Positions 16,189 to 47,440 of a DNA stretch of 64,000 nucleotides are shown piece after piece. The stretch is from Ceratodon purpureus (taxonomy: Eukaryota > Streptophyta > Bryopsida > Pseudoditrichales > Ditrichaceae), in contig CM026426.1 in the NCBI GenBank assembly GCA_014871385.1, positions 70,847,287-70,911,286 on the forward strand, in the 5' to 3' direction. A program made the position numbers and the translations under genes. Each line of letters begins with the position of its first letter. Positions within the stretch are counted from its first letter, which is position 1. Below the pieces are notes generated by a model. The model was not told the DNA's origin, ran no database searches, and saw only the letters and a program-made list of their open reading frames with translations.

Positions 16189-17230
16189 ATGCCACGACGG
16201 AAATCTACATCATGGAGGGGAAAAGAGGTAAGATTCAAATTTGAGCAGTGTCTATAGGTTGTAGAGTGATGAAAGATGTGTCTATGTGATGCTCACTCAT
16301 ACATGTGTTTCTTGGTTTTTGTAGGAAAGTTTCTTGAAGGTTCCAAGAAGGAGCTCTTGAATACATTCACTACAAGCACCAACATCCTCCAATCCTCTAC
16401 CTCCATCCTCACTTCCATCCCCACCCTCCCCTTCTTCTCCACCTTCACTTCCAATACCAACTTCACCACCTCCAATACTTCCTACAGATGATCATGTTGA
16501 TATATACACATTATTGGAGCAAGCAATAGGAGAACCCAACCTTGACTTCATGGATAGCCAAGAGATTCTTGAAAATGCAGGGAGGGCAAGTTCATGTGAG
16601 GAACTTGAAGAAGACAGTTTTGATGAAGGAGACTATGCTTTTGATGAAGACAGAACTTTGGAGGAACTGTGGTGGCCTGAGGAGACAAACTACACTGTGG
16701 AACAATATGAAGCTCGATCTAAGAAGAGAACTAAAGGGTCGCAGAGGTGGAGGAGGAGCAAGGGACATGTTGGAGAGAGTAGCTATGGTGGAGAACAGGG
16801 TCTGCAAAACGAAATTCTGGAGGCCGCATCAACATTGCAGCGTGTTGGTCCTGCGGTGGGGCGCGAGCAGAGCGAGGACCGCTGGAAGGGGGGGGGGGGG
16901 GAAGGGTTGATCTGCATGGTGGGGGCAATTTCAAAGGAGGCGGACATCGCGCTGGTATAGCTGGGTGTGCCAGCACAGATGGGAAGCCAGGATTGGGTTG
17001 GAGGGGGAAAGCCTCCGAGACTTGGCAGATCGGGAGCCAGAAAGTTGGTGGGCGACGGGATCGGGATGGAGACATCAGGGGGAGCGGGGTGGGAACTACA
17101 GGAGGACATAGAACGGGGTACAGGGTTGGAGGGGGTGGGGCAGGATATGGGGTTGGGGGGGATGGAGTGGTTCCTGTAGCAGGGCAAGAGGGTTTTCTAG
17201 GGAACGTTGAAGGGATTTTGGATGATAGGG
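16189..17230 (+). pseudogene. piggyBac copy 2, transposase N-terminal part (left of insertion)
   Basis: A short first exon (16,189-16,227, MPRRKSTSWRGKE) ends at a GTAAG donor. The acceptor is TTTTTGTAG at 16,324. Exon 2 carries a Pro/Ser-rich stretch and LEELWWPEE, matching LEALLWPPE of copy 1. A Gly-rich linker follows. There is one TGA near 16,358. The frame changes exactly at a G14 run (16,888-16,901): the frame before it closes soon after, and the frame after it stays open to 17,230. The frame continues beyond the 14.5-kb insertion at 31,744. This is the DNA-binding-poor N-terminal region of a piggyBac transposase. Confidence 0.7.
17227..17230. repeat. Target-site duplication AGGG, left copy
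   Basis: AGGG directly before the left TIR of the 14.5-kb element; the second copy is at 31,744-31,747. Confidence 0.7.
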
Positions 17231-17248
17231 GGGTGGAAGTACACTAGA
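17231..17248 (+). repeat. Left TIR of the 14.5-kb element
   Basis: GGGTGGAAGTACACTAGA, inverted without mismatch at 31,726-31,743. Further subterminal GTAC words follow at about 17,274, 17,296, 17,306 and 17,316. Confidence 0.85.
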
Positions 17249-17639
17249 GGTAGTGCAGTTTTGGCAAAACTCCAGTGTACCATTGAGACCTTTTAGTACT
17301 AAAGTGTACAATAAGTACTCTGCCTTACTCAATCTGAGCCGTTGAAATTCCTTGGGAGAAGAGAGGTTACGCGATTGGGATCAGCCAATCATGATAGTCT
17401 ATTCTGACACTATGGATTCGCTTTGATTTAGATCCATATGGGCCAGCACATCTCGACATGACATGTGGCGGAATTCAAATACATGGAGCGGCGGGAGTTG
17501 ATGTCCAGCCTCGGCGGCAGGATCTGCGATTCATTGAAGCACTTAGCATCCTAGCCTTGAACAGATACGGTTTCCGAGATTGGTCATTTGATTACAATCA
17601 TCCTTCTAATGTGCAATCATCCTGCTCTTGAAAATTGTA

Positions 17640-19620
17640 TATTCGTTAAAGGTCTCAAAGTTATGGACTTGTCTCCACTTCACGTTTTTTTTAGATGAAC
17701 TTGGGATGAAGTCTAGTTCAGTCAAGTGATTGGTTGTTTGAAGCATTCCAAAATATTATGCAAGCTTTGAAATTAAATTATAGCATGGCTCTAATAAAAT
17801 TTTCTTTTTAATACGTTGTCATAAAAAATATAAATTGAAAACCATGAGTATCGATTATTTATACACTTGTTTTTTTAGAATTGTATATGGTTCCTAATTT
17901 AGTATTTTGAAAATAAACCTCCGTACTTGAATTGAGATTTCTTCCTAGAATTCATCATTTTATAAAAGAGAACATGAGAAGTTAAGATATTAGCATGGTG
18001 GGAAAAGGAGAATGCAAGAAAGTAATCTATACAACATGTTTAATTTTTGGTTTTTTACTTTTTTTCATGTATAGCTTTTTGAAGTTGTTTTAATAATAAT
18101 ATAAAAATTAAAATTAAAATATGGACATCATTTCCTCCCCCCCTAAAATAACATATTAAATATTAAGACCAAAGAAGGAAAAAATTGAAAGGAAAAAGGA
18201 AATAGAAGAAGAAAATAAAAATAATAGAAGGATAAATAAAATAGAAACAGATATGAAATACGATAATAAAAGAAGGAAGAAAAATAAGTAAAATGGAAAA
18301 AAGTAGAAGAAAAAAATAACAATAGTAGAAGGATTAAAAAAAGAGACAAATATGAAATATGGTGATAAAAGAACAAAGGGGAAAAAATTATAAAAAGTGA
18401 AAAAAATTAGTTAAAGGATGAAGGAATACTATATTGAAGTGTGATGTAATAGAGAAATGAAAGTGAATTCCCTAGAGTTATGGGTGCCAATGGATTCTTG
18501 TCATAGCAATTTGAAAATAGAATATTCTAAAATAAAGGTAGATATGTTTATATGTATTTTTTTCTTTAAATAAGGCATGAGACGTTAGAAATTAGCATGA
18601 TGGAAAAAGTATAGCGTGCAAAATCAAACTATGAGATAGTTAATATATTCATTTAACATGTGCAACTACTTTAAGATATTTTATTAATAGAGAGATAAAT
18701 TTAAAAATAAATGAATGAACGTCATTTTGTGCGCCCCTTCTTAAGAGTTGATATGATATATCAAAAAAGAAGAACGAAAAAAAAAATAGATCAAGATTAT
18801 TAGAAAAAATAATAGACCAAGATTATTTCTTCCCCCCTTTAAATAAAATATGAAACATTTAAAGAAACAGAAGAAGTGAAAGAATTGAGAAGGACATTTT
18901 TCCAAAGACGAAAGATCAAGATATTGTAGAGATTGCTTTATAAATGTTGTTCATTTAAAAATGGAAAAAAAACGAGATCTATTTTAAGTTTATTTGATGA
19001 TAGGAAATTAGAAAAAAATCAATAGACAAATTTTGTTGTCTTCCCCACGTTAAATAAGATGAAAAACTAGAAAAGAATTAATTTAAAAAAATCAACGTTC
19101 CTTCAAGGACAAAAATAGAAGTTACTGAAGAGTGGCGTAATTGTGAAATCAAAGTGAAGTAAAAGTATTTTAGTTGGTTTTCATTTACGACTACTTGAAG
19201 GAAAAATAATTAAAAAGTGGTACGCATTGATGTAACAATTTAGATACCTGAATCTCATTTTTGCAAAAAGGAAAGAAATAAAAAATTGAAGGGATGAATG
19301 AAAAAATTTCATTTGAAAATGCTTTTTTTCAACGTTATTAGACCAATTTAATTCTAAGATGAAATAATACTTTGAGAGATTTTCTCATCATTCGAGTGGC
19401 GATCTACTTATGAAATTTTGATTATGTGTAGTAAATATTTTATTATTCTTGGAAACCCTCACCGTACTGTATAATGTCATTGTGAAAACGCGGAAAATTT
19501 ATTTAAAGCTTCACATGTAAGTTTAAAGTTACAAGAATTTTTTTAGGCATTTTTAAATTTTTGGGGATTTTTTAAGAATGGTAATTAAGTAAATTAGTCA
19601 GATTTAGGATAAGATAGAAT
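17640..19620. other. AT-rich left arm of the 14.5-kb element, no gene
   Basis: This is about 2 kb of strongly A/T-rich, partly purine-only sequence without supported frames. Around 18,190-18,400 a unit of roughly 110 bp (aatagaagg...gatatgaaatac) occurs twice with mismatches. The contrast with the GC-rich coding part that starts at 20 kb is sharp. Confidence 0.5.
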
Positions 19621-19727
19621 TAAGTGTGGGAGTATACCACCAAATGTGAATTGATGTTAACACGCAACGGTAGCTGGAAATTTTTGAAGTGACGGCTTAG
19701 AAAATGGCGGGAAGTGATTACCCACCA

Positions 19728-19845
19728 GAGTGACCGGCGGTCACCGGTTACCGTCGAGGGAGAATGTGGAGGTGACCGGTGACCGGCGGTGGGCATGTTG
19801 TGAAATTTGTTGGGTGACCGGTGGTCGGAGGTCACCTTTGTCTCG
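19728..19845. repeat. GGTGACCGG repeat cluster upstream of cargo gene
   Basis: GTGACCGG/CCGGTCAC words occur in both orientations at least five times in about 120 bp, including the palindrome GGTGACCGGTGACC-like arrays. It lies about 250 bp before the cargo-gene start, so it may be a promoter or operator-like array. Confidence 0.5.
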
Positions 19846-20089
19846 CACCTCCCGAGTTGGGGGTCGAGGTCTGCCATGCTTGTGGAGTCTGCGAGCTGCG
19901 CCTCAACCAGGGATGGCGGGTGGGGATTGCTAGGGGTAATGGTTTAGGGTTTTAGTTAGCCGTAATGTGGGTTTCTACGGGTGTTGGTCGGCTTGGATTG
20001 TGAGGGTTTTGGTTAGCTTGGCGAGTGTTGGTTAGCTTGGCGCCGTGACGATGTCTTGGAGGTAGCTCGAGGAATTGGGTGGGGCAGCG

Positions 20090-23000
20090 ATGGAGCGCAG
20101 CCAAAGCGCGCCCTCTGGAGACAGGGACAGCGCAAGGAGGGGGAGAAGTAAGGGAGCGCGAGAGAGAAGAAGTCGAGGTGTGGGGAGCGATGAAGATGAA
20201 GGGGGAAGGGAGGGTCTGCGGAAGAAGGCACAAGGGGAGGGAGCCGGAGGAGGGACACCTGCGAGCGAGCCTGCTGTCGAGGAGATCGAGAAGAAGGGGA
20301 GAGGAACGAGCCGAGGGAGGGCACCAAGCCGGGACGCGGAGGAGGGAGAACCAGCCGCAGGCTCGAGGTCCACAGCAAAGAAGAAGGGAAAGGGACCGGT
20401 GCGGTCCGAGAAGGCCTTCCTGTGCGTGGAGGACGTTGATGAAGAAATCGACAGGTTGAAGAAGCCTCCACGGGAGCTGAAGAAGGCAGATTTTGCAGCA
20501 GAGTATGGACTCTCCAACGAGGGAGACAATCCCCACCACTTTCGTCGCGGAACAGTCTCCTCCGACACGGTGCGTAGGTTATTTGGTAAACCGTATGGGG
20601 ATGGGGGCCGTAGCGGATTCTATTGGCAGGGCTGCGAGGTTCAAGAGGTGGTGGATAGGGTGAAGTACTTGCACCCGATTCTGTACCAGCACGAAGAAGA
20701 GGAGAATCCAAACCTCATTACCATCAGGTTTGCGGAAGGAGTTGCTTTGGAGTACGAAGAGGGTGGAGGTCGGGTGAATTGGTGTGCATTCGGGGAGGAG
20801 ACTAACAAGCGACAAAGGAGTCGGTACAAGTTAGATCAAGGGAAGTTGGAGGAGCTGAGGAAGAGTATCGCAGATTCCAAGTGCGAAGAGGGGAAGAAGA
20901 AGGTGGACGTGCGAGGAAAGGAGTGGCGCGGCATCAAGGTTGAGCCCGGTTGGGAAGGGAAGGGGGAGCAAGGGGACGTGCTGAGGGTGCGGGGTCGTGG
21001 GGCACCGGGTGAATCAAGGGGGGGACTTGAATCAGCCATGGCCTCGGGTGTGTGTTTGCAGGAGGATGCGCAGGCATGTGATCAGGGTAGAGGGAGGTTG
21101 GCCAAGGGGGCAGTGGAGGATCGGCTGCAATGCGTGGAAGGACTAATGCAGGACATCCATTTGGAGCAAAAGCACAAGCGGGAGCTGAAGAAGGAGGCGG
21201 CTCAACGGCTTGACCGCGCCGGTTGTAGCACCAAACAGTCTGAATGGGGCATGGGCCAGCTGAAGAAATAGGAGGAGCAGAAGACGGCATTGATAAGAAC
21301 ACTTGAGTCGCAAGGAGCGGATGTATATAAGGAGAAGATCAAGATGGAGGGAATTCAGGAGCAGCTAGCAGAGGAGGAGAAGATGGTCGCGGCCGCAAAG
21401 AAGGAGCTGCGGACGGCCGAGGCTGAGATCCAGGCGTTGACGAGGGAGTTGGACTCGGGCCAGCTGCAGTTTGATGCCCTTGCAGCAGAGAAGTTTCAAT
21501 TGAAGCAGGGGAGGAGCAATCTGAACTTCGCTCCAAGTCCAATGGTGTATGTGGCTGGGGAATCAATTCTGCCCGGGGTCGATTTTTTAGATGAGCCCTC
21601 GCAGATCAGGATTACAACTTGTTGCTTGTGTTCCTTCCCATTTCTGCAGAATGACATGGTTGTATCCTCCTGTAGACACTTGTATCATCCTTTTTGTGCT
21701 TCAGTTGTCTTCGTACAAAGTTGCAAGTGCGTGGCCACAGGGTGTGGGGAGATGTGTCACCCGGATTGGCACCGAAGTTTTGGCTGGGGGGAGCCACTTG
21801 CAGATTTGGTGGAGAAGGCTAGGATGCTAGGACTGGCCGAAGAAAGGAAGAGATTGATGGAAGAGAGAACAAACCAGGCTATGGCCAAGGTGCCTTCGGA
21901 TGGTAAGTTTGCTTAAACCTAATTTTCAGACTCTTATTATGTGTCTTGTTACTTGAATAGTCAATGTTGTACTTTGTAGGGATTTCAGAGCTCCTGTACT
22001 ACGTAGCTCAGATTGTAGTATGCGACTGTTCCACTTCTCGTGAGTTCTAGAAGTTTGTTATAGGAAGTATAACCAGTACACCCATTGGCTAGTAAGGTTG
22101 TACACTCCATATCTGTGGTTGCGATCACTCATCTGATCGTCATCTTAGAGAAGTTAAGCTTGCACAGTGTATAAGAAGGTCAATTTCACTAAAGACATGT
22201 GACTGAATGTATACCTTAGTGTCGAAGTCTAAGTGCAATATGTGTACAAGAAGTTGCTTTGATGAATTCCATAGATTAGTATGTAGTGCATAATACTTGG
22301 TGATTTCTGTTAGGCGCTGGAAATGTCATGTTTGTATATCAGTGTAAAAGTCTGAATGCAACATATGTACAAGAAGTTGCTTCACTGAATTCCATAGATT
22401 TCTGTGTGTTGCATAGTACTTGCAGGTAGTGGTTAGGCGCTGGAAATGTCATATTTGTATATTAGTGTTAAATTCAATAAATGCAACATGTGTACAAGAA
22501 GTTGCTTCACTAAATTCCATAGATTATTGTGTATTGCATAGTACTTGGTGACTTTGGTTAGGTGCTGGAAAAGTCATATTTGTATAGTAGGCCTAATCTT
22601 CAGGTACATGCGGCTACTTAGAGCAAGTATCTTATGTACTACATTGTGGTTGAAATGTACTTACGGTGCTGTACACAGACGACACTGTACTTGACGGAGC
22701 TACAACAGGTATTTCTTGTCTTTATTTAACTTGGTACTAGAAGTCCTACATGGTAAATATAGATTGAGTCCAGGTCCTACAGTACATTCTGAATTGCAGA
22801 CTTGTACAAATGGTCCACCAGTTCAAATCCAATAGGTAGTGACAGTAGTGGTTCATTTGTGCTAGTTGACTACAATTACATATAGTACTATGTGTAAAGA
22901 CTCTAATGTCCTGTGTCGTGGCAGGGTCTAGCCTCAGGTTTGCATCACCTAAGAAGGCTTTCAACAGCGCGGGAGGAGCAGTCGATTGGGGAACAAGCCA

Positions 23001-24510
23001 AGCAGCATGCTCTGGAGGCGTGCCTCAAGAGTTTGGTGGGGTGCCACCGCGGATTCTGAGAGGAGAGAGCATAATTTCAAGAGAGGCACCAAGGTTGGAG
23101 AAGCTGGTGCAGAAGGTGGTCATGGAGGCTCTCGTTGAGGGCACTCACTTGAAGGGGTTTGAACCAGATCTAGGGTCGGAAGAGGAGTCTTCAGATGATG
23201 AAGAGCCCCATCCCAAGATGTCCCCGGAACGTTCGAGCTCCGTCACTACCGACTCGGATGGGAGCTCGGAAGATGATGCGAGCTCACATGAGGAGACAGA
23301 GGATGGAGGAGACGGCGTTGTCAGTATGGAGTTGAAGCCTTCACAGGCAGCCGGTGGAGAAGGCAGCCCACAACAGCCAGACAGCCAAGACCGTGCGGAA
23401 GGAGATGTGGAAGAGGAGGATTTGGTCGAAGTGATGAGTCCAGCGGAAGCTGAAGGGGGTGAGGGTGGTCGGGTTGTTGGTATTGTTGTCAGTGGGAGCG
23501 GGAAGAAGGCTGAAGGAGGGGTTGTGGTTGGTCTGAGTGGGAAGAAGAAGAGTGAGACTGCAGGGGTTGTTGGGAGCGGGAAGAAGAAGGCCGAGGCAGT
23601 AGAGGAGGGGGCAGAGGTGGAAGGAGAAGCGGTGACGGAAACGGAGAAGAGACCGCAGGGTGTGAGGGGGACAGAGGTGATGGCAGAGGAGAAGAAGGGG
23701 CCACATGGAGTGAAGGGAGCGGAGGTGCTGCCAGAGGAGAAGAAGGGACCGCAGGGAGTGAAGGGGAAGGACACGCCGCCGCAACCTCAGAGGAATGAAA
23801 TGGCCAAGCCGGGGTCACTATGCCTCCCGGGACGCAAGGGAAGAGCGCTTTGGGGAGAACTTCCTCGGGATGGAGCGGGGACCACGGTTGGGGGTTTGGT
23901 GGAGACACTGGTTTCGGAGGAGGCTGCTGCAAAATTTATGGCGGTACCAAGAAGGAGGTCCGAGGGTACTTTAAAGGAGAAGGAGCAGGCTCCAAAGGAG
24001 AAGGGCGATGCTGGGAGGAATGGTGTAGAGAAGGGGGGGTTGGATGTGCAAGCTTCAGTCTGCTTGGAAGGAGAGGCATCCGTAGAGGATTCAGCCGCGG
24101 TGGAAGGATCGGCTGGTGTGGCCTCGTTGGGAGCACCGGAGGGAGAAGGAGCCCACGTGAAGAAGTCTGTTTCGCCCTGGTCTCCTTTCAAGCTGAGAAC
24201 AAAGAGGGCAAAGGGGCCGGAGGTGGAGGATGATGTTAGCGCGGGACAATGTGCGTTGGTAGAGAATGTGTACTCAGCTGACAAGACCACATACAAGGAG
24301 CTCGCTGGGATTGTTGGAGTGAGTGGGAGTCCCGCGGCTGTCCCTGAGGTCAATGTGCGGACCAGGGCACGCACCGCCAAGGAGGCAGAGCAAGCGGCAG
24401 AGGAATCTGCTGAGAAGAGCAAGGCGAAGGGGAGAAAGAAGGAGAAGGTGAAGGGCGGCAAGGTAGGTGGCAATCTCTCACAGAAACGGCGGAGAGGTGG
24501 TGCCACATAG
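20090..24510 (+). CDS. Cargo gene 5' exons: coiled-coil, RING-like zinc domain, Glu/Lys-rich protein
   Basis: The first ATG is at 20,090; the frame is open 15 nt further upstream from a TTG. Exon 1 ends at 21,902 before GTAAGT. Intron 21,903-22,924 ends in GGCAG, and the phases fit (GAT G|GG TCT). Exon 1 encodes a basic/acidic N-terminus, a globular part with VNWCAF near residue 235, a long coiled coil, and a Cys/His cluster (CCLCSFPF, CRHLYHPFC, CKCVATGC, HPDWHRSFGW) that looks like a RING- or PHD-type zinc fold. Exon 2 is Glu/Lys/Gly-rich and ends in a basic nuclear-type tail. One in-frame TAG (21,269-21,271) breaks exon 1. Function unknown. A donor near 24,462 may join it to the SET exons downstream. 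Confidence 0.6.
21269..21271 (+). other. In-frame TAG in cargo-gene exon 1
   Basis: The reading frame on both sides is the same and the coiled-coil heptads continue (QLKK before, EEQKTAL after). The simplest change is CAG to TAG. Otherwise the 604-codon exon is open. Confidence 0.85.
22205..22605 (+). repeat. Three tandem copies of a ~124-bp unit inside the cargo-gene intron
   Basis: The phrase TGTACAAGAAGTTGCTT recurs at about 22,243, 22,366 and 22,491 (spacing about 123-125 bp). It is accompanied each time by AATTCCATAGATT and GGTGCTGGAAA-like sequence. The copies differ by about 10 percent by eye. Confidence 0.8.
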
Positions 24511-24737
24511 AATACAGGCTTGAGCAATCTGTAGGATTGCCTTTTGTAGTTAGTTTTTTTGTTTTTTGATCTATTGAGCTGCGGTATAATGCCTGTATAG
24601 AATAGATTTGCAGGTATATCAATGTATCTTACCTCATGAGTGAGGTCTTCCTTATAGGGAAGGTTCCAGGCTTGTCTGTTTTTTTCCCCATGCGGTTGTT
24701 CTAGTTGCCGCCCTGATTTTTATTTCTTTATTTGTAG

Positions 24738-25888
24738 TCCTCCCCTGCAGTCTTAGAACTTGTCTCTTCTATTTTTATGACCATGACGAGGGGAAGGTGG
24801 TCTGTTGGGATGGGATTCAACCAGGCTGAAGCTTGGTATGATGCAGCAGACTTGTCTAAGGGACTCGAGAGGATTCTTGTCCTTGTCGGTCAGTCTGAAA
24901 TTGCTATGACATATTTTCAATACATGAATTCTAGTGTGGTCTTTGACCAAGCAGTCGTGCCTACCACCCTTGAAAGCCTCCGCCCCGGGGACTTCTGTCT
25001 TTGTTCCCCGGAATGCTTGGGGGCGAATGGTACTTGTGCATGCCAATCCAGTCCAGTCGGTGGAGTTGCATACACTGAAGGAGGCCAAGTGGAGGACGCG
25101 TACCTGGAGCCACGCAACGAAGAAGATGCACATTACTGTAAGAAGGCAGCACGGTGTTTTAATGGAGATTCAGTGTGCCGGGGTCATGTGGGTCGTCTTT
25201 TCGTTAAGGAGTGCAATGTCAAGTGCAGGTGTCATAGTGATTGTGGCAATCGTGTTGTCCAGCAGGGGATGAAGTATCAAGTAGAGGTTTTTTGTACAGC
25301 CCTTACGGGGTGGGGGATTCGGACGACTGAGCTAATTCCTAGAGGTGCGTTTGTTTTTGAGTTGACGGGAGAGATTTTAACAAATGCTGAGCAAATGGTT
25401 AGGAACTTGGAGGTAGTTGGGGGTCAGTCCTATAGCTTGCAACTTGATGCTGACTGGGCCACTGAGCGGAAACTGGACGACCACAGTGCACTATGCTTGG
25501 ACTCTTCTCGGTTTGGAAATGTGGCCAGGTTTTTGAACCACAGGTTAGAACTTGCGACCATATTCTATATACTCAGCGGTCTTTGTCCTCACGTTTTCAA
25601 TCTGATCTGACGGTGGGCCTCTCTCATTACAGGTGTGAAGATTCTAACCTAGTGGATGTACCTGTCTCGATAGAGAGTGTGGATCGCCGCTTCTATCATG
25701 TAGCATTTTTTGCAAATCGTATCATACGGCCTGGAGAGGAACTAACTTGGGACTATGGCACTAATTTTAACAATGATGATCCGGACCTACCTCAGTTTTT
25801 TTGTAAGTGTAAGAGTAAAATGTGTAGAGACAATGCCTTACCACTTGCCATCCGAAGGTCAACCAGGAAACCACCTAGGAGAAGATGA
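24738..25888 (+). CDS. SUVR-class SET-domain histone H3K9 methyltransferase
   Basis: Exon 24,738-25,543 and exon 25,633-25,887 are joined across an 89-nt GT-AG intron (phase fits: CAC AG|G TGT). The pre-SET cysteines (CLCSPEC, CACQ, CKKAARC, ECNVKCRCHSDCGNR) come first. The SET core follows, with GWGIRT, GEILTN, LDADW, the AdoMet motif RFLNHRCEDSN and the catalytic ELTWDYG. The post-SET CKCKSKMCRD closes the module. The order and wording match plant SUVR1/2/4 enzymes, which methylate H3 Lys9 in chromatin. All key residues are present. The frame is open upstream of ATG 24,777 to an acceptor-like TTTATTTGTAG at 24,737. No start-type N-terminus is seen, which suggests splicing from the gene upstream. 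It lies inside the 14.5-kb transposon. Confidence 0.85.
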
Positions 25889-25920
25889 CTTCACATCTGT
25901 GTTGTGCTATTCTGAACAAT

Positions 25921-26100
25921 ATTTCAGCCCATGTACTGTTTGTACTACCGTATATAAATCTACAACATACTATTTGTACATTTTTGATATACTACATGTA
26001 CAAACAAGCGAAATGCAAAGATTTTGAAGAATGGTTCAGCCCATGTACTGTTTGTAGTACCGTCTGTATTCAGAACATACTCTTTGTACATTTTTTGGAG
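25921..26100 (+). repeat. Two tandem copies of a ~112-bp unit after the SET gene
   Basis: CCATGTACTGTTTGTA is found near 25,929 and again near 26,041, each followed by TACCGT and by ATACT.TTTGTACATTTTT. GTAC words are dense here. It may hold the 3' end of the cargo transcript. Confidence 0.7.
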
Positions 26101-26129
26101 CTCGAGACATGTACAAGTTGGCCATAGGC

Positions 26130-26823
26130 AAGGATATTTTTGACTCTTACTACTTCAACTATTGTGTAGCAAACATAGAACAACTCGGATAAATATACAA
26201 CCATTCAAAATCTGGATCTGGAAGCTTGAAGTTGAGTTTATAAACTCACTTGTTAATTCTTAGAATGAATGTTTCGATGGCACTGTTTGAGTAATCTTAG
26301 TTCTATGTTTCAATGCTACTGTTTGGCTAGTCTGAGTAGCTATCCTCAGACATGAGCTCTTGAGATACCGCTATCCAGTGCTCCCTGTAGAAGGCCCAAA
26401 ACAAAAAGGAAAAAAACTACAGTATCTAATATCCAGCAAAATGTAGAACCATGATCGTCCAGCCTGACTCAAAATGAAAAAAGAAATACGGAATGGGTGA
26501 TACTACACTGAAGAGGCACAAACGTAAAAGAGAGTGACATTACAAGGTACAAAATGAAATTATAAAAAGAAGATTATAAAGAATAAAAAAAAAAAAGGGA
26601 TTGCAGGTTCTCTTAATCACAGACTACTATGCCAGACAATAGATGACTGTAGCAAAAAAAAGGGGGAGCACTTGGATAGCGGGATATCTCTGGAGCTCAC
26701 TTTCAGTCAAACAAATACCCAAGCATTTGTTTGACTTGTATCATCACGGGACCAGTACTACTAAAACCAACGTCAAATGAGAAACAATCCTGAAATCAGT
26801 GTACATAGGGGGCCAACTTGTAC
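26130..26823. other. Gap between convergent genes
   Basis: There is no reading frame. AT-rich sequence with A-runs (26,585-26,596) separates the 3' ends of the cargo gene and the transposase gene. Confidence 0.4.
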
Positions 26824-28761
26824 TTAATCTTCATTGAACGCCCACCACTCTCGCAAGGCATCTTCACATATCCTTTGCGTTTCACTGGACATTGTGTATA
26901 CAGGAGTACCTTTAACCCTGTGAGGAGCTAGAACCATAGGGAATTTACAAGCTCTAACCAGATGGGCATCGACATGTGCATCAACTGCTTTGTCACAGAG
27001 TACATATGTCTTCTCACCACGTCCATACTTCTTGTAATAATTTGCTCTGATCACAACGTCTCCAGCCCTAAATATCCCCCCCCCCAAGGGCAAGTCATGG
27101 GCTCTGCTAACACAAACTTCTTTGCTTCACACCGGAGAATGTAGAATTCCACCCCGTCTTCGTTCTCTTCTACTGCTGGAATCATGAAATTGTCGCCGAT
27201 GTCCACCAAATCACCGACCTCCTCTGAAATGCCGTCATACACCCAGTTAGCCTCGTCGTCAACTTCTTCAATTTGCTGTGCTACGGCCCCTGCACTCATT
27301 GGACAGAGCCTCTGTACAGTCCACTCCTGCACATGCGACAGATTCTCACACTCAGTCCAATCACCATCAATACACGGGACACAGAAGCATGACAACTCCC
27401 GAGTTCTAAGCATAGTAGGATCAGACATAGAAAAGCCCATAATAGAATATAGACTCTTTGAGCCCGGCAAAGTGTTACACTTGATACTCTTATCAGTATG
27501 ATCCACCTCTGTATTTCCTATCAACCAAAATACACGTGAAAGAGGGGAAGTTCTAGCATGAGCATATGAGCTGGCAACACGCTCTGTGTATTTTTCCTCC
27601 AGGAGCGCCACCACTTGAGCGGCATTCTGTAAGGGCCTGAGTGGATTCTGGATCTGCTCAGCAGCAAGCGCCCTCTTCACCACGGCATTAGCCTTATCCC
27701 ATTCTCCTTTTCCATGAGCCGACTCAAAGTAGTTCCACCGCATCTTGCAGCCCTCCCGTGAGCGCTGGGTAGCGTGCAACAAAGTACATCGCTGTTGCGC
27801 ACTTAAACTGGGAACTACACCCGTCACTGTAGACCCAATGTTCCTCCGGTGTCAACCCTGAATCACCCAGCCAATCCCAATGCAATGTCAGACAATGTTG
27901 AACAAAAGCTGAATCGTGAGCCTTATCATCAGATATGTAGAAGTGAGTCTGCTTCATGGTCTGCTCTCCTTCTTTCCACATCGTAATGTGCACCAGCATG
28001 GTCACACTAGTACTGAAGTAGTACAAGCTCTGGACCTCGTTTTGGATGGCAAAAGTGTAGTTCTCTGCATAGTCAATATGTGACACAACAACCCCCTCCG
28101 GAACGTTCTTCATCATCAATTGGCATTGCTCATCTTGCCATTGCGCCTTGAAGTTGTGCGTGATAAAGGTGGTCACTGTTTTCTCCGTATAAGATAGGAA
28201 TTCGTTAGCAGCTGTTTCTCTGAAAGCCTCCCTAAGCCGTTTCTTCACTCTTCCAGAATGAGCATCCACTCCCACCTGGTAGTACTCGAAACATTTCCAT
28301 CTAACAAGAAAGGTGTTAGAACCAGACAACTCATGCGGACAAATAGGAAAGAGCTGGAAACCACAACTACAACAGTTGCCCATGAGACATTCAAGTCTGT
28401 GCCACACATCAAATTCTCCCTTTGCATAAACACATGATTCCCACATTAGAGTTATTCGTTTGTACGTATTCTCATGTGCACAACAAGTCCCTTCCTTACT
28501 GCCTGTGCACACTATACACGCACAATCACAGGTGGTATGCACATGGAGCCCCCTGACTTTGTCTCTGAGGTTGCTCAATCCAGCCTTCATCATGTCCATC
28601 TCCACGTGGTATATGCAACAACAGGTATTCCTCTCCTTCAGTTTTCGCACCCACCAAGGCTTCAACCTCTCAAAAGCCCTTTGCCGCACAGTACATTCTA
28701 GATGGACCTCTTCGAAGCGCAAGAAGAACGAGGTTTGCCAATCACGCACAAGTATACATCA
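26824..28761 (-). pseudogene. DDE transposase main exon of the 14.5-kb element
   Basis: On the minus strand the first catalytic block reads HIDYAENYTF (near 28,078) and the second YSDGCSSQFK (near 27,830). The third is NYFESAHGKGEW (near 27,724) followed by VVKRAL. D, D and E in this setting, with the HGKG phrase, are typical of a eukaryotic DDE transposase group. Upstream lies a Cys-rich region (CCCIYHVEM, HTTCDCACIVC, GNCCSCGFQ) that may bind zinc. The frame shifts once near 27,750 and once exactly at a C10 run (27,076-27,085). After correction the protein runs to a stop at 26,824. The first codon of the open stretch is not ATG, so it is an internal exon. Superfamily uncertain, Sola-like favoured. 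Confidence 0.75.
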
Positions 28762-29558
28762 GGTACAATTTAGGACCCTCATTTCAGAACCTCTTACAAA
28801 ACATACAACACAATGTACTAATTGTAGAAAACTAACACCCTTACTCTACAAAAAACACAGAAAATCACAGTGGGTACTCCTCAGTACTTTCGACATTGAT
28901 GCAAGTATAAATTGTATACTAAGAAAGTACAATACATCGCAACGCCACGTATCAACATGACTCCAAGTACTGAACTATATTCTAAGTTATTGATAAGTTT
29001 TCAAAAGTAGCTAAAAAAATAGAAACAAGTAAACTGTGTACCAAAGTGAAATTCTACTCGTACAATAAGTACAATGAAGAACCATCTTATGGACATTTGT
29101 ACTGCTACATCGCAACTAGTGGAAGTCCCAAGTCAAAAAGTACATTACGACGCACATCTAAGACTTACTATGAACGTAAAGTACGCATGGTACCACTTCT
29201 CCACTTCTAATCTATAGTCCTCAGAAGTACTATATCATATATTGCCTCCAAATTACAGAACCAGTACAGTTTATACTTCACTCCAACAGGACCCTGATAG
29301 AAGTTAACATTACAAAGAGTACACACCCGAAATTGACTATATATAGTAATTTGTCTTGCAATGTTTTGATCCAAATTATGTACCATGGAATGCAGCCTAG
29401 GCAAAACATGCTGTACAAAAACTACAAAGTAACTGTTCTCGACTTCTCTAGAATCTTTAGATATCTTTTCTGTCCTGTGAGATACCGAAAGTGTGAAGAC
29501 TAAGTATTCGGACTCATCATATTACACAAACTCAATATATCAATAAGTTACAACTCAC

Positions 29559-30356
29559 CTGAGGCTCGCACAAGTAATGTGTTGGATGAGGCTCGGCCCA
29601 GTCTTTTCGACCTACTCTGTGCTTGACGATGTCCTTCTTGTTCGGTGATACTTTTGTTTGACCATTCCACCATGCATGAATGCATTGTTTGATATACTCA
29701 GATAGCCCTGCTCTCTTCTTCCGATTTAAGCGAAGACTGCAAACCGTGTCTTGACTGTCGGCGGCGTAAACCCTTCTGTTCAACGCAATATTGATGCTCT
29801 TCTGTGTCGTAACCAAAACACGTGACAACGGCCTCACTCCTTCGATCCCCTGGCTAACTGCGGCATCTAACAAGGCACTCTTCCTTGCCAACAGCTCGTT
29901 AGAGTTAGCCTGCTTCACTAACTGTAACTCGTTCTTGAAGTTCTCAATGAAAGAATGAATAACTTTTGCTTCCTGTGGCCGAGCATAGTAAACAGGTAGC
30001 AAAGGGGAAATAGTGTTATGACGCATGACCCTCTCCATAACATCTCTCCTACTAGATGGACCGGGACAACTTCTCAACTCTTCGACTATGTACTGTGCTA
30101 TGCGAAGGGAGATTCGGTTCAACTCCCGCGCAGTTAGAGCATCTTCGACTTCATGATCCGGCGGCACAGAAGCTAACACCAATGTTTCCTCGTGTCTTTG
30201 TCTATCTCGTGCTCTCTGAAGGGCCTTCCGTTCTCTCGCCCTCTCTGTAACTACTGCCCGTAAGTCCTCCTGCAAGCGAGCTTCAGCAAGCCTCGCTGCT
30301 GGACCTGGGCGGCTGATACCCTGTCGCAAGCGTTGCCTCTTAGCAGTGTTACCCAT
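29559..30356 (-). CDS. Transposase N-terminal exon of the 14.5-kb element
   Basis: A 266-codon open exon starts at ATG 30,356 (MGNTAKRQRL). It is preceded by a TTTTCCTAG acceptor at 30,366 and ends at 29,559 with a consensus CAG|GTGAGT donor, phase 0. It encodes a basic helical start, an Arg-rich coil (RARERKALQRARDRQRHEE) and a region ending in HPTHYLCEPQ. It lies directly upstream of the catalytic exon on the same strand. The acceptor of the next exon, near 28,760, is not clear, so the join is unproven. It probably contributes DNA binding or multimerisation. Confidence 0.55.
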
Positions 30357-30534
30357 CGCTGGAACCTAGGAAAATAATAGACGTAGAAAACAAGAAACAC
30401 ACATTAGTTATCAAAAACTGAATGAGAATTCATGGTCGACGAGTTCAGGATGCACGATAAGCTTATAGAAGAAAAAGACAGAGTTACTCTTTCATAAGAC
30501 TGCAACCAAAACTCACCGTAGAATATCAATCTTC

Positions 30535-30882
30535 TCACTTCTTGAACGCAACAGATTCGGAAGAAGCAGTAGGAGACCCTACTGAAAGCCTTCCCTCAGA
30601 AAGAGAAGGTGTGTTGTCAAAGCTACTTCCAGAATAACATAACGAAACTGGACTCATGAATAAAGACCGCCTAGGAGACTCATCTACGTTGTTGCACTTG
30701 CCTAGATAGAAGTCACGATTCCCTTGCTTTGACACTGGTGTTTCTTCAACATAACCCGAATCAGAAACCTCACAGAATGAATGGCAGCAAGAAGAACCGA
30801 ACTCAGTGATCACATCTGTAGTAAAGTATGATGTTATCAGTTTCTGAATAAGAACAACTTGCCGCTGCGTGGACTTTGACAT
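30535..30882 (-). CDS. Short upstream ORF in the transposase leader exon
   Basis: A 115-codon Ser-rich frame starts at ATG 30,882 and stops just 18 nt before a CG|GTGAGT donor at 30,516. That donor would splice to the transposase exon at 30,365. It is either a regulatory upstream ORF or a first exon whose stop is an error. No motif recognised. Confidence 0.3.
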   Translation of the reverse strand: MSKSTQRQVVLIQKLITSYFTTDVITEFGSSCCHSFCEVSDSGYVEETPVSKQGNRDFYLGKCNNVDESPRRSLFMSPVSLCYSGSSFDNTPSLSEGRLSVGSPTASSESVAFKK

Positions 30883-30889
30883 TATTCAC

Positions 30890-31725
30890 AGAGGAAACCC
30901 TAAACCGCCCTTGAACTTTTGAACAAGAGTTATCCCACAGCATACAAGCTAAACTACAGCACCAAGCATAATCTTCAATTCGCAAGCAACAGCATGCTAC
31001 AGCAAAGACGCAACAGTGTGCTGCATGGGCGATGAGAGGAACCAACGAGAGAGACGATGACGTGGACAAATCAAGAGGTGGCGGCGCCTTCATGGCATGG
31101 CGGCCCAGGAAAACAGGATCTGTTGAAAACAACGAGGCAGTAGTTATGACAGATACCATGTACATCATATACTCATGCGTACATTTTGTACAAGTAGCAC
31201 GCAGGAACACGTCGAGGGTCAAGTAACGGAAAAATGACAATTCTCTTTATTTGAGAGAAGGCCATTGTAGAAATGTGTGCCGCCGTCGGAAATCATGCCT
31301 CCCATTACAAAAAATCATAATTTTCCACTTCGTATTCCGTTGCAACTGAAACCAGCACTTACTTCCATGTACAGACCAAATTAACTATGTACTTGTAAAA
31401 TCAGGGATAGATTCCAATAGGCTATTCCTTATTATCTCCTTTGCAAAAAACAAAAACAGATTTAGAGCTTTTGATGTTGAAGACTTTTGTACTTTTCTTA
31501 CATACGAGTACTGTGTGACTTTTTTGTATTACTGCACAATAGTACTAATTGAACACACTTAACTTGCTTTTCTAACTAATTTAATAATGAACAGGAGATC
31601 TCTACATATGTAGTATTTGGAAAAACAAAACAAAAACCAAGGAAAAAGCTTTTGAGTACAAGTAATTGCAAGTACAAATTTATGCCTTCAATGTATATTG
31701 TACTGTGACTCAAAAAGTACATTCG
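30890..31725. promoter_or_regulatory. Right arm of the 14.5-kb element
   Basis: This is non-coding DNA between the transposase leader and the right TIR. AGTAC/GTACA words recur at 31,657, 31,673, 31,699 and 31,717, mirroring those next to the left TIR. It probably holds the transposase promoter and transposase-binding sites. Confidence 0.4.
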
Positions 31726-31743
31726 TCTAGTGTACTTCCACCC
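31726..31743 (-). repeat. Right TIR of the 14.5-kb element
   Basis: TCTAGTGTACTTCCACCC, the exact complement of the left TIR, followed by AGGG at 31,744. Confidence 0.85.
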
Positions 31744-33495
31744 AGGGGTGAGGGTCTGTTAGGGGGGAGGAGTGAAAGGAATATAAGAAATAGAGCCCAG
31801 TATACACGCAAGAATGAAGGAGTCAACGATCTCCAAGTACCCATGTTGGAAAGCGAGACTGTTGATTTTGAAAGTGATTGGGATTTTAGTGAAGAAAAAG
31901 GTGATGATGGAGAAACGGGAGATCCTAATAGCATCAAGTATTGTTATCAGGATGCAACATGGAACAGGTCTTATTTTATTTAAGATCCGGAACGGCATGT
32001 ATTTGTGGGTGTTTCAAAGCAAAGCTTATTTGAAGAGACATTTCACACCATGTTGCAATTGTTTGAGGTTCTTTTGGACACATTACATATTGTGTGATAT
32101 TATTAGGGAGACGAATCGATATGCCACGGAGGTGGATAGAGAGGGAAATATTATGGGTGGTAATGGATGGGAGGAATTTACCGTGCCTGAGTTGAAAGCA
32201 TTTTTGGCAATATGGCTGTACATGGGAATGAAACGACAACCCAATATCAGATCATATTGGCATAAAAAATGTTCAATTTTCAATTGCTCCATTATCTCCA
32301 AAGTTATGACCCGCACTCGATTTTTTACTTTGACAAGATGTTTACATATCACTAATCCTGCAAGATATGTTCAGGACAAAGAATTACCAAGGTATGATAA
32401 GTTGGAGCAAGTGCAATGGTTGATAGAAGCCATTAGGGAAAATTGTAGAAAAGCATGGACTTTGGGGAAGTTTTGCACCATTGATGAGATGATGATAAGA
32501 TATAATGGATCTTATTGTCCTTTACGACAACACATGCCACAGAAACGTTAGAAGTGGGGCATAAAGGTTTGGTATGTATGTATGGAATTTTGTATGGACT
32601 TAGCGAGCTCTACTTCAAAATATGTATGGAATTTTGACATTTACTGCAAGAAAAGCCAAAGAAATGGAGATGAAGGTCCTATTTTACAAGGTGAGCCTAG
32701 ATTGGCTCATAATGTGGTATTAGATTTGACAAGTGGGATAGAGGGAAAAGGCCATGTTATTGCTATGGATAATTTTTTCTCAAGTGTTGGTCTTTTCAAG
32801 GACTTACTTTCTAGACTTATTTATGCTACGGAAATAATGCGGTCTAATCGTATTGGAGTACTTCATTCAACCTATTGAGAAATACAAAGGCTTACAAGAA
32901 AATGGATCAAGGTTGGATGGATTGGAGGATGCATGATTCTCAAACCATGTCATTGGTGGTATGGAAAGATAAGAAACCAGCGCTTCTCTTATCTACCTTT
33001 GCCCAACCGACAATTTCTCCAGATTTGCATGTGCCAACGGTTTCGCATAAGGATGGAACGGTTTGAAATGACATCCCAACTTCACCCATGCATTTGGAGC
33101 ATACAACATATATAGGGGTCTTCTTCTTACTTGACATGACGGTTGTCAATATGTTTTTGATATATGTTCACAAATGCCAAAATGTCGTTCCAATCCGCAA
33201 ACCCATTACACACTTGCAATTTAGGACGGAATTATGTGAAGCTTTATAGCGGAATTGGAGGGCGCAGCAAGAGGATGACTTCATTCAACCTATCCGAAGA
33301 CGTGGTTTATGCTTTCCTATGTTTTCAAGGAAAAGAAATCCATGTGTTGTATGCAATAAGGGTAAAAGTAGTAAAGGCACTAGGCCACATTACTATTGCC
33401 TTTCATGCGACAACAAGTTCATGTGTTTCAAGCCCCGAACTTGCTTCCAAGAGTATCATGAAGCTCTCCAGCAACGAGGTCTTCAAAATGTAAGT
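31744..33495 (+). pseudogene. piggyBac copy 2, transposase catalytic part (right of insertion)
   Basis: The frame resumes at AGG 31,744 and continues into the acidic linker (MLESETVDFESDWDF) and the DDE_Tnp_1_7-type core. IIRETNRYA is near 32,097, TIDEMMIRYNG near 32,480 (first D) and MDNFFSS near 32,765 (second D). The block with the third catalytic D (GVDVADQ in copy 1) is deleted near 33,115. The Cys-rich C-terminal domain (CVVCNKGK, CLSCDNKFMC) remains. Stops near 31,983, 32,549 and 32,878 and frameshifts are present. Inactive. Confidence 0.85.
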
Positions 33496-37217: not shown

Positions 37218-39896
37218 ATGATGGGTACTCAGTCGATGATCTCGAAGTTTATGTTTTCAGGGCGCGTGGGCGACGTTGATGGAGAATGCTGGAGCTCGGA
37301 ATTGGGGAGTCGCTTTGATCAGGATGAGGAGCAGCTCTCGGTAGGGGGTGATTCCCCTCCGGCTGTCACGGCCTCCTGCTCGGAGAAGGAGGCTCAGTCT
37401 TTCTCTCCGAAGGAGAAATTTTTGGAGCCCGATTGCGTGGTTACTGCAATCACCCCCCCTCCCATGCAGTCGATGAAGTCTCCCCCTTCGCTGTTCCAGA
37501 ATGTTGGTGCGAAATTCCGACGGCCCTTGCTTGGGTGCCGAACCCAAGCTGCGATGCGCAATTCGGCCATGCGCAATGCTGATCCTCTTGACACAGTGCG
37601 CAATGCCACAGAGACTCTGGAGACGTGGGAGGGGTCCTCGGAGCATGAGCGTGCCCGCCGTCGGAGGCGCGGGTACGAGGCAAATCGGCAGTGGCAGGAC
37701 TCGTGGGCTGCGAGATTGCCCTGGGCCGAGAGTGTGCTAAATCGCGATGGGAAAGTTGTTCAAGTTCGTTGTGCTATTTGTTCACTGATAGAGGGGCGTG
37801 AGAAATTGCTTGTACCTAAAATCGATAGTCTGTGGAAGCATGCCGGGAGGAGAAAGGCGACGACAACGGTGGGGAAGGTGAAGGCTGGGGATTATTTTTT
37901 CCTTGCTAATAGTGCCCATATCCGAAACGAGAAGGCGTACTTCGCCAGGCAAGGGGTTTCCGGGGACACTGTCATTCAGATGGTGTCCCGGGATGCTGTG
38001 ATGGAGAGGCGCAGGAAATTGGTGCAATTTCGGAGTGTTTTTTGGCTCTTACGCCATGGCCGCCCTATGACTGATTTTGAAAATCAGAGGGAGCTGTTTG
38101 AGCAGCTGCTGGTGCCGGATTGTCCAAAGAATCACTGGTCGACTGGGGCTGGGTGGGAAATGGCGGACAGCATTGGCCATGTCTTGGCAGAGCATACGAA
38201 GAAAACGATTTCGGCAGCAAGATACTTCAGCCTCTCGGCTGATGAGGTAACATCTGTAGACGGCCAATCTTGGTTGTCGATTCATCTGTATTTGTGCATT
38301 GGTTTTAAGAGAGTAACCATCCTACTTGCGCTGCTGAGATTGGTAGAGGGGAACGGTGCCAATGCTGTACGTGAGGCTGTTGAGACGATGGTACAGCACC
38401 ATACTGGACTTAATCCAGATCAAGTAGCCGAGAGGTTGATGTGTTTTGGTGCAGACGGGGTTTCGGTGTTTCAGGGCTGTAAGAATGGGGTGGGAGTACA
38501 ATTAAAGAATCATGTTGCACCATTTGTCTTTGTGGTCCATTGCTTTGCTCACCGGACCAATCTTGCTGTGGAGCCATTGTCGAACCTTCCTCTTGTGAAG
38601 AAATTGGAGGATTTGTGCCAGATTACGTATTCTTACTTCAGTCATAGCTCGAAGAGACACCTAGAATTCCAGAAACTTGCTGACGTGGTGGAAACAGAGG
38701 GTTTAGCAATCTTGCGCAATGTGAAGACTCGGTGGATAAGTTTGCTGGATCCATTGAAGAGGCTAATGGGTGAGTACAAGACCCTCATAGTGAAGATGGG
38801 AGAGGATGCGGCTGTAAAGGAACCAGAGATGACACAGAAACAGCAAGCTGCGAGGGACTCGGCCAGGCAGTGTTTCGAAAGGCTTTGTGACGTCGGTACA
38901 ATGCTATCACTGCCGTGTTTGCTACCTCTGCTGGAGTCTGTCAATTCCCTCATGAAATTTGCACAGTCGCGTCATGTCTTCGTTAGTGATTATGTTGCTG
39001 CTGTGAAAATCTGTCAAGGAGAGCTATACCGCCTCTATGATGATCCAGACACAGCTTTTCAGAGGCCTGATTTTCAGATGTTCCGAGACATACTCGATAA
39101 CAAGAGCTATGCGATCTGCTCAGAGTGGACAGAAGATCTGAATACCGGGGCTCAGTTTTTAGCCTTCAAGATAGACGGCCATACTTATTGCGCCCATTCT
39201 TTGTGCAATGTTACGGGCAAAAAACTGCCTGTCACCCGGGATATGCTGGACCAGGTGGTCGCATCTGTCAAAGCGCAGTGCCGGGAGGCCTCCTTGCAGC
39301 TACGGCAGGACCTTGAGCTGCGATTTCCTAACTGTGATCTGATGAATGCTTTGTCTATTGTTTTTCCGCAGTTCTGGTTGCAAGCCAATGCTGATGAGCT
39401 TTTTCCCCTCCATGTTGCGACGTTGAAATCACAGTACTCTGTGAGCAGATCAGTGAACTATGGCACAAAAGATGAGCCAAAGCAGCGGCAGGTGGACCCT
39501 TTGATCGATGCGAGGACCCTGCATTTGCAGACGTCCCTCTTTAAGCTGACCATGCGGTCAAATGCTCGTGCAGCAATGGAGGAGCCTCGGGACTTGAACC
39601 CGCTTACGAAACTGTGGAGATCTGTTGGGCAGAATTCGCTGATGCTTAACAGGCTCAGTGAGTGGATAAAGGTGGCTGAGCTTGCTGTAACTGCCGTACT
39701 TGGCTCGGTGGAAGATGAGAGGACTTTTAGTTCTCTCTCTTTCATGAAATCAAAGCTCCGGAACAGACTTGGGGGGCACCTTGATACCTGTGTGAAAATA
39801 TACGCCCAAGAATTCTTTACGCAAGAGTCATTCCCTTATCAAACTGCAATAAGTCACTGGCGGGATGGGAAGAACCGAAGGGGAGCTAATGTGTAA
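37218..39896 (+). CDS. hAT transposase, apparently intact (892 aa)
   Basis: There are two ATGs in a row at 37,218 and 37,221. A BED-like zinc finger candidate (CAIC near residue 185, KHAGRR near 206) follows a basic segment. The RNase H-like core shows SLSADEV (about 336, first D), CFGADGVSVFQG (about 410, second D), HCFAHRTNLA, and TRW (about 504) of the hAT family. The C-terminal dimerisation region has GSVEDERTFSSLSFMKSKLRNRL (split as SVEDERTFSSL and KSKLRNRL) at 826-850. It cuts and pastes elements with CAGGG ends. It is full length with no stop. The right copy carries a frameshift, so this copy is the likely source of active protein. Confidence 0.92.
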   Translation: MMGTQSMISKFMFSGRVGDVDGECWSSELGSRFDQDEEQLSVGGDSPPAVTASCSEKEAQSFSPKEKFLEPDCVVTAITPPPMQSMKSPPSLFQNVGAKFRRPLLGCRTQAAMRNSAMRNADPLDTVRNATETLETWEGSSEHERARRRRRGYEANRQWQDSWAARLPWAESVLNRDGKVVQVRCAICSLIEGREKLLVPKIDSLWKHAGRRKATTTVGKVKAGDYFFLANSAHIRNEKAYFARQGVSGDTVIQMVSRDAVMERRRKLVQFRSVFWLLRHGRPMTDFENQRELFEQLLVPDCPKNHWSTGAGWEMADSIGHVLAEHTKKTISAARYFSLSADEVTSVDGQSWLSIHLYLCIGFKRVTILLALLRLVEGNGANAVREAVETMVQHHTGLNPDQVAERLMCFGADGVSVFQGCKNGVGVQLKNHVAPFVFVVHCFAHRTNLAVEPLSNLPLVKKLEDLCQITYSYFSHSSKRHLEFQKLADVVETEGLAILRNVKTRWISLLDPLKRLMGEYKTLIVKMGEDAAVKEPEMTQKQQAARDSARQCFERLCDVGTMLSLPCLLPLLESVNSLMKFAQSRHVFVSDYVAAVKICQGELYRLYDDPDTAFQRPDFQMFRDILDNKSYAICSEWTEDLNTGAQFLAFKIDGHTYCAHSLCNVTGKKLPVTRDMLDQVVASVKAQCREASLQLRQDLELRFPNCDLMNALSIVFPQFWLQANADELFPLHVATLKSQYSVSRSVNYGTKDEPKQRQVDPLIDARTLHLQTSLFKLTMRSNARAAMEEPRDLNPLTKLWRSVGQNSLMLNRLSEWIKVAELAVTAVLGSVEDERTFSSLSFMKSKLRNRLGGHLDTCVKIYAQEFFTQESFPYQTAISHWRDGKNRRGANV

Positions 39897-47180: not shown

Positions 47181-47440
47181 CTGTAGCAAATAATTACAGG
47201 CACCACTTCTTTAGACAAGTTGCACATCTCCTAGGTTGGGTAGAACAGAAAGCTTTTGAAGAAGAGTTCACTGACATTGTTAGATCAGTGTGGCCAGACA
47301 AGGAAGATGGGGAAACGCAGATCGTCAAAACGAGCAAAAGAGGTAGACAGATGTGATAAATTTTATCAATGATAATCAAAACTCATGACACATGAGAAAT
47401 TTTGCAAACAAACTCATGCCTACTTGTTTTCTCTATGCAG

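Follow-up and report, generated by a model that had tools for sequence, protein, structure and literature searches.

In a 64-kb window of the genome of the fire moss Ceratodon purpureus (C6:70847287-70911286, in an assembly of 362.5 Mb and 151 contigs, 110.5 Mb of which is C6), a DNA transposon occupies positions 17231-31743 and carries three genes: a RING-like open reading frame (ORF), a gene with a SET domain of the lysine-methyltransferase type, and a transposase gene convergent to the SET gene. Exact 18-bp terminal inverted repeats (TIRs), recorded in a first-pass annotation of this DNA, are present at both ends. The left repeat (GGGTGGAAGTACACTAGA, 17231-17248, + strand) has its exact inverted match on the right (31726-31743, - strand), and the two are the sole exact matches of this sequence within the window, where up to three mismatches yield three matches against 0.04 expected. 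The AGGG target-site duplication (TSD) described in the same annotation is read on both flanks, at 17227-17230 and 31744-31747. The insertion has split a piggyBac-type transposase (DDE_Tnp_1_7, 31787-32548, + strand, Pfam E 9.5e-28), and both this nesting and the RING-like gene had been overlooked. The GTAC-rich subterminal DNA claimed for the element is confirmed. GTAC is enriched in the terminal 700 bp on the left (17231-17930, six against 1.4 expected) and on the right (31044-31743, 13 against 2.4 expected), counts that no resample out of 300 reached at either end. Over its entire length the element is GTAC-rich too (91 against 37 expected, equalled in 0 of 40 resamples), and, the TIR aside, the left and right 1-kb ends have only 9-mers in common (E ≥ 3). 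GTAC forms the core motif recognised by plant SBP-box (SPL) proteins, and those of the host might bind the enriched ends or the element.

The SET gene is predicted to consist of three exons on the + strand with GT-AG introns and 855 open codons, a model derived from the translated sequence, GT-AG splice sites and alignment between copies, with the introns predicted from DNA rather than RNA. Exon 1 (22870-24462), whose true start is uncertain (the first ATG lies at 22906), encodes a charged, low-complexity N-terminal half without a Pfam match. Exon 2 (24825-25543) encodes the pre-SET domain and the first part of SET, and exon 3 (25633-25888) the rest of SET, the DYG motif and the post-SET CxCx4C motif; the NHRC motif of SET is split by the intron between them. 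Pre-SET and SET both score above Pfam cut-offs in the window copy, where SET is the only open gene of the element's three. The Pfam matches, the open three-exon reading and the post-SET motif bear out the earlier description of a complete pre-SET/SET/post-SET gene between the ends. A TGA common to many copies was considered as a sign of shared decay and rejected, as it sits in the predicted intron just upstream of exon 2 and 14 of 18 aligned copies are stop-free in exons 2 and 3. A one-codon gap (indel) occurs in the SET of four copies (L036, L044, L046, and L069). In protein searches the SET protein is 40-49% identical to five proteins named SUVR4, and its named relatives are mostly from land plants; among solved structures, G9a/EHMT2 and GLP/EHMT1 come closest, followed by SETMAR (3bo5) and SUV39H2. 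Alignment indicates that NHxC (here NHRC), the next Asn, DYG, GWG, and the post-SET cysteines are kept, as in SUVR4-type proteins, throughout the window lineage down to its diverged copy L068. A Trp precedes DYG in this lineage, again as in SUVR4-type proteins, at what we take to be the Phe/Tyr-switch position.

Across the genome the TIR at up to two mismatches has 330 matches (165 + 165), against 15 (6 + 9) for the pattern read backwards as a control. Flanks were read for 13 facing end pairs picked among 100 listed of these matches, and at least one further facing pair exists beyond the 13 (C6:82532872-82582108). A perfect 4-bp TSD flanks 12 of the 13 pairs, with only two matching bases at the thirteenth (C6:11685358), and its sequence varies (AGGG, TCCA, AGAG, TCTA, TACT, CTAG, ACTA, AAAG, CCTT, CTAA, TACC, and CGTG). 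Nine of the pairs lie 11.4-15.3 kb apart; the other four, at 43-75 kb, are taken to hold nested insertions. Among the matches listed, SET lies inside 13, the transposase inside 12, and the RING-like gene inside eight of the 13 pairs. Uninterrupted piggyBac-type sites, 79-80% identical and aligned in one stretch across the insertion junction, occur at C1:24245096, C6:46648017, and C6:37063803, the match at the third site reaching less than 20 bases to the left of the junction; these sites are paralogous, not allelic empty sites. The TIRs, the 4-bp duplications, the many copies, and the uninterrupted paralogous sites together show that the element is mobile, and it is best read as a cut-and-paste DNA transposon (class II, TIR) of a large, old family. 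The searches proposed with the first-pass annotation, for multiple copies holding both genes between TIRs with 4-bp duplications and for empty sites, thus both returned what it had predicted.

The SET gene is tightly linked to the transposase throughout this family. The genome match lists comprise the best ~150 scored matches, and the linkage counts are accordingly lower bounds. The transposase is repetitive, with 1,115 candidate matches, the best 117 of which were scored; SET lies at the expected side and strand for at least 87 of these 117, the RING-like gene for 74, and both for 69, while the wrong side or strand was found for SET in no case and for the RING-like gene in one. With the SETs of diverged lineages added, as 103 entries judged to be new of which one is a repeat, SET lies within 9 kb of at least 97 of the 117 core matches and at least 123 of the 150 matches to the C-terminal part of the transposase. 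Merging these gives 209 transposase loci, at least 168 of which have a convergent SET within 9 kb and none a misplaced one, where chance would give ~0.4% per locus. Some of the misses are only apparent, because at C12:12328033, C10:14609908, and C5:719584 a SET 96-98% identical to that of the window lies farther off within the same TIR pair. These are the same three copies (L028, L031, and L035) that lacked SET among 20 copies fetched as 10-kb stretches, the 20 best-scoring rather than a random sample, of which 15 matched the SET exons and two (L033 and L043) contained remnants. The genes have also diverged together: identity to the window copy correlates between SET and transposase (Spearman 0.94, 87 pairs) and between RING-like gene and transposase (Spearman 0.86, 74 pairs). 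Two objections anticipated in the first-pass annotation, that other copies might lack SET and that SET might be single-copy, fail on these counts, with a SET match at 168 or more of the 209 transposase loci and at least 334 merged SET-match loci in the genome, host genes included.

Selection on SET was estimated by the Nei-Gojobori method, as the ratio of nonsynonymous (dN) to synonymous (dS) divergence, over up to 324 codons of exons 2 and 3, leaving out L029, in which the region exceeds 1500 bases. In the 73 of 153 pairs with dS of 0.1-1.0, which have common ancestry and hence are not independent, dN/dS is 0.26-0.40 with a median of 0.32. Compared with the window copy, dN/dS is 0.34 for L070 (Fisher p 7.7e-6), 0.28 for L067 (p 4.1e-15), 0.28 for L069 (p 1.9e-17), and 0.12 for L068 (p 7.1e-33, with dS saturated). 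The young copies L030 and L045, with few changes, have ratios of 0.86 and 1.05, as expected from drift after insertion. Several copies whose SET proteins are 56-64% identical still have open frames. Judged from these substitutions, purifying selection on SET between subfamilies is the pattern of a gene that the transposon needs. Given its linkage, its co-divergence, the purifying selection, and the kept catalytic motifs, SET is a long-standing component of the transposon that selection has preserved, and not chance cargo, and we regard the architecture of the element and the selection on SET as very nearly certain.

The transposase gene lies on the - strand. Its catalytic and C-terminal part (26824-28758) reads as one frame of 643 codons in L029 and in several other copies, relative to which the window copy has two frameshifts, near 27.75 and 27.1 kb. 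A probable upstream exon (29532-30365) is matched in 19 of the 20 fetched copies at 91-100% identity, and a probable first exon (MSKSTQR..., 30535-30885) in 17 of the 20 at 88-100%. Neither the window pieces nor L029 have a Pfam match, the sole hit in the window being to DUF5305 at chance level (E 0.17), and among 13 relatives the best of some weak matches is to DUF6597 (E 0.00024, in two of the 13). Three Asp residues, D229, D312, and D354, and also D277, in the numbering of the 643-aa frame, are invariant across these 13 relatives; the label DDE-type is used because of this alignment and is without Pfam support. No solved structure matches the transposase at E ≤ 1, and no relatives were found in viral contigs. 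The RING-like gene (20066-21913, + strand) comprises 616 codons with one in-frame stop in the window copy (21269-21271), whereas several other copies have open frames of 600-746 aa. Its Pfam RING matches are weak and under the cut-off, and its genome matches are the best 150 scored of 1,578 candidates. Harbinger elements have a 3-bp TSD, and MuDR elements have a MULE transposase and a TSD of about 9 bp. Assignment to either superfamily was rejected, as the transposase has no Pfam match and the TSDs are 4 bp long and vary in sequence; piggyBac was likewise rejected for the element itself, none of these TSDs being TTAA. Sola elements have a 4-bp TSD, and the present element can be likened to them by its measured TSD and its moss host. 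Sola1 has been recorded in Physcomitrella, according to the available part of the source (PMC9033089).

The SUVR1/2/4 family of land plants, SUVR4 included, has pre-SET, SET, and post-SET domains and catalytic motifs in common with the SETs of the window lineage, whereas the element SETs group apart from the SUVR rows, have no detectable WIYLD domain, and are mobile and multicopy. In a tree of 77 rows, whose host row is L002 alone (L001 and L003 gave none), the element SETs and their metagenome relatives form a group of 50 rows with support 84/40, of 49 rows with 84/24, and of a 40-row core with 98/89, standing beside 22 SUVR rows (86/94) as their apparent sister. The program flagged long branches for L002, P0087, and P0089. 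On this support, a single capture of SET is not certain. The lineage L004-L008 is supported at 98/97. In one diverged lineage, comprising L005, L007 and their relatives, the transposase C-terminus is 47% identical and SET is present in 10 of 11 copies in the same arrangement, ~0.5-0.7 kb from the convergent transposase match, and searches with L068 and P0037 brought up more SET families, which adjoin further transposases. SETs of the C. purpureus genome interleave in the tree with metagenome sequences, and if these come from other species, the SET lineages predate C. purpureus. Metagenome entries also contain hints of the same gene linkage outside this assembly: the longest contig listed is 8,592 bases for SET P0028 as well as for RING-like P0092, and 5,267 bases for transposase P0003 as well as for SET P0044.

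Associations of SET domains or epigenetic enzymes with transposons are known from other systems. SETMAR (Metnase) of anthropoid primates also brings SET and transposase sequences together; in the available accounts, however, it is one host gene in which SET is joined to an inactive transposase, whereas here two convergent genes reside in a multicopy element. A SETMAR-like fusion was ruled out, SET and transposase being separate genes on opposite strands. The regulator of the VANDAL elements is sequence-specific and lacks a SET domain. VANDAL of Arabidopsis nevertheless provides a case of a plant DNA transposon regulating its own epigenetic silencing, as far as the source is available (PMC12730594). 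The same partial source describes fungal DNA transposons with TET/JBP genes, which similarly encode an enzyme that acts on epigenetic marks and may serve to counter silencing; there the enzyme is a DNA dioxygenase, found in several transposon superfamilies, and here a lysine-methyltransferase-type SET (PMC12730594). A literature search found no plant transposon with a SET gene, a weak negative since many subscription papers and Repbase Reports lay outside its coverage, and the one paper returned by a search on Ceratodon and SET domain concerns actin-binding motifs. Kojima and Jurka reportedly described SET-bearing elements of Phytophthora, of the HarbingerS and MuDR types, in Repbase Reports in 2014. 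In the excerpt available, these elements are cited as having taken up SET methyltransferase genes (PMC12730594). They are, as here, DNA transposons with a SET histone methyltransferase gene, but those are of oomycetes and belong to other transposase superfamilies, whereas the present element has a moss host, a varied 4-bp TSD, a transposase without a Pfam match, a SUVR1/2/4-type SET, and a RING-like third gene. The first-pass annotation knew of no plant precedent and, within the literature searched, none was found; DNA transposons bearing SET are on record in oomycetes, according to the part of the source available (PMC12730594).

The reading we prefer is that the SUVR-type methyltransferase, as a core gene, marks the element's own copies; to this statement as a whole, mechanism included, we assign slightly less than even odds (roughly 0.45). 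By analogy, H3K9 methylation (of lysine 9 of histone H3) is the likely activity of the element SET, SUVR4 of Arabidopsis being an active H3K9 methyltransferase in the available part of the source (PMC4260354). The enzyme would be made upon transcription of the element and would methylate H3K9 in the chromatin of the element's copies, tuning silencing rather than plainly escaping it. In cells where transposition has no payoff, copies would thereby be kept quiet and cheap to the host, or in a methylation state that the element can leave. The transposase would move the element, perhaps by reading its GTAC-rich ends, and the RING-like protein might, speculatively, recruit or regulate the SET protein. 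The data suggest that the element manipulates the marks used to control it and, so far as sequence comparison can speak to function, are consistent with the idea put forward in the first-pass annotation that the element sets or subverts chromatin. Several points weigh against this reading. Self-repression is counter-intuitive for a parasite. According to the same incomplete source, SUVR1 and SUVR2 have no methyltransferase activity, SUVR2 silencing without it, and membership of the SUVR family is therefore no proof of catalysis (PMC4260354). Exon 1 has no match to WIYLD or any other Pfam domain at E ≤ 1. Readings of the L004-L008 lineage stop at ELTW, with DYG and post-SET not seen; these may lie in a further exon. 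Lastly, among the matches listed, SET adjoins none of the 11 copies of a transposase subfamily of ~698-704 aa (for example C6:46541870 and C12:15994202), grouped crudely by ORF length with fragments included, which has long open frames and in which SET may be dispensable or too diverged for those matches.

The strongest alternative, though a somewhat unlikely one, is anti-silencing by interference, in which the SET protein would compete with the host SUVR/SUVH machinery and relieve silencing. Competition could be for nucleosomes or for partners (the CHR19/27/28 remodellers, for example), or could operate through a methylation state unused by host readers. A rogue relative could poison host complexes, as SUVR2 is described in the accessible part of the source as silencing via partners and not catalysis (PMC4260354). 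The long charged N-terminal half of the element SET and its lack of a detectable WIYLD domain would suit such a role, and other transposons encode regulators or enzymes of epigenetic marks, VANDAL and the fungal TET/JBP elements among them in the portion available (PMC12730594). A pure decoy, however, would not need the catalytic and S-adenosylmethionine (SAM)-binding motifs, which are kept across SET lineages 56% identical. It is less probable again that SET serves transposition itself, marking insertion sites or ends or methylating the transposase, and so steering integration or excision. The strict linkage and co-divergence of SET with the transposase fit that role, and so does the 2.3-fold over-representation of SET-match loci on C6 (238 of 334), but weak purging on a chromosome that does not recombine would be expected to produce the latter too, and stop-free transposase matches are fewer on C6 than elsewhere. 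The enzyme could instead act against rival elements, or serve to silence host genes near insertions; the insertion of the window copy inside a piggyBac-type element and the four of 13 TIR pairs that span 43-75 kb, as if nested by other elements, might be so read, yet nesting is ordinary in repeat-rich DNA and no observation points to a specific target; we consider this reading improbable. Capture of cargo is common in plant transposons, and SET might be a host gene hitchhiking as a neutral passenger; the dN/dS values contradict this, with Fisher p of 7.7e-6 to 7.1e-33 for L070, L067, L069, and L068 against the window copy and with open frames persisting in several copies down to 56-64% protein identity, and we consider it highly improbable. 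A single-copy host SET gene flanked by a chance TIR pair, for which no point was found in favour, is ruled out for practical purposes by copy number, TSDs, and linkage.

Returning to the self-marking reading, a broader version of it is possible though doubtful. The element would belong to an ancient moss transposon superfamily with a heritable chromatin module of its own, in which a SUVR-derived H3K9 methyltransferase and a RING-like partner have stayed with the transposase while lineages diverged to less than 50% identity, and which other mosses may possess too. The superfamily would write the chromatin state of its own copies, and these, in their hundreds, would account for most SUVR-like SET loci of the genome and for some of the gene content recorded on the sex chromosome. 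Transposons are normally targets of H3K9 methylation, and here a plant transposon family keeps under selection a gene from the enzyme family that places its silencing mark. If the enzyme is active, the family offers one system in which to test whether parasites self-regulate, evade, or exploit host silencing.

Gene counts and studies of gene families could be distorted by the hundreds of SET and RING-like frames in this genome, concentrated on one very large chromosome, that belong to transposons. C6, which we take to be a sex chromosome (the V, judging by size), makes up 30% of the genome and holds, among the matches listed, 238 of 334 SET-match loci and 145 of 209 transposase loci. The genome of C. 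purpureus has been described, in the part of the source available, as 360 Mb with sex chromosomes that each exceed 100 Mb, or about 30% of the total (PMC8000587). Stop-free transposase matches are fewer on C6 than elsewhere (29 of 72 against 28 of 45, Fisher p 0.024, for the best 117 of 1,115). Elsewhere in the window, two near-identical ORFs of 892 and 850 aa, hAT-type-like by eye, lie at 37218-39896 (+ strand) and 41408-43960 (- strand), ~1.5 kb apart on opposite strands, and constitute a large inverted repeat. A 906-aa piggyBac-like ORF at 47396-50116 (+ strand) appears by eye to be related to the interrupted element at 31787. Finally, ORFs at 55807-57547 (+ strand) have an N-terminal RING finger and the look of a host gene, presumably of the plant PRC1/DRIP RING type.

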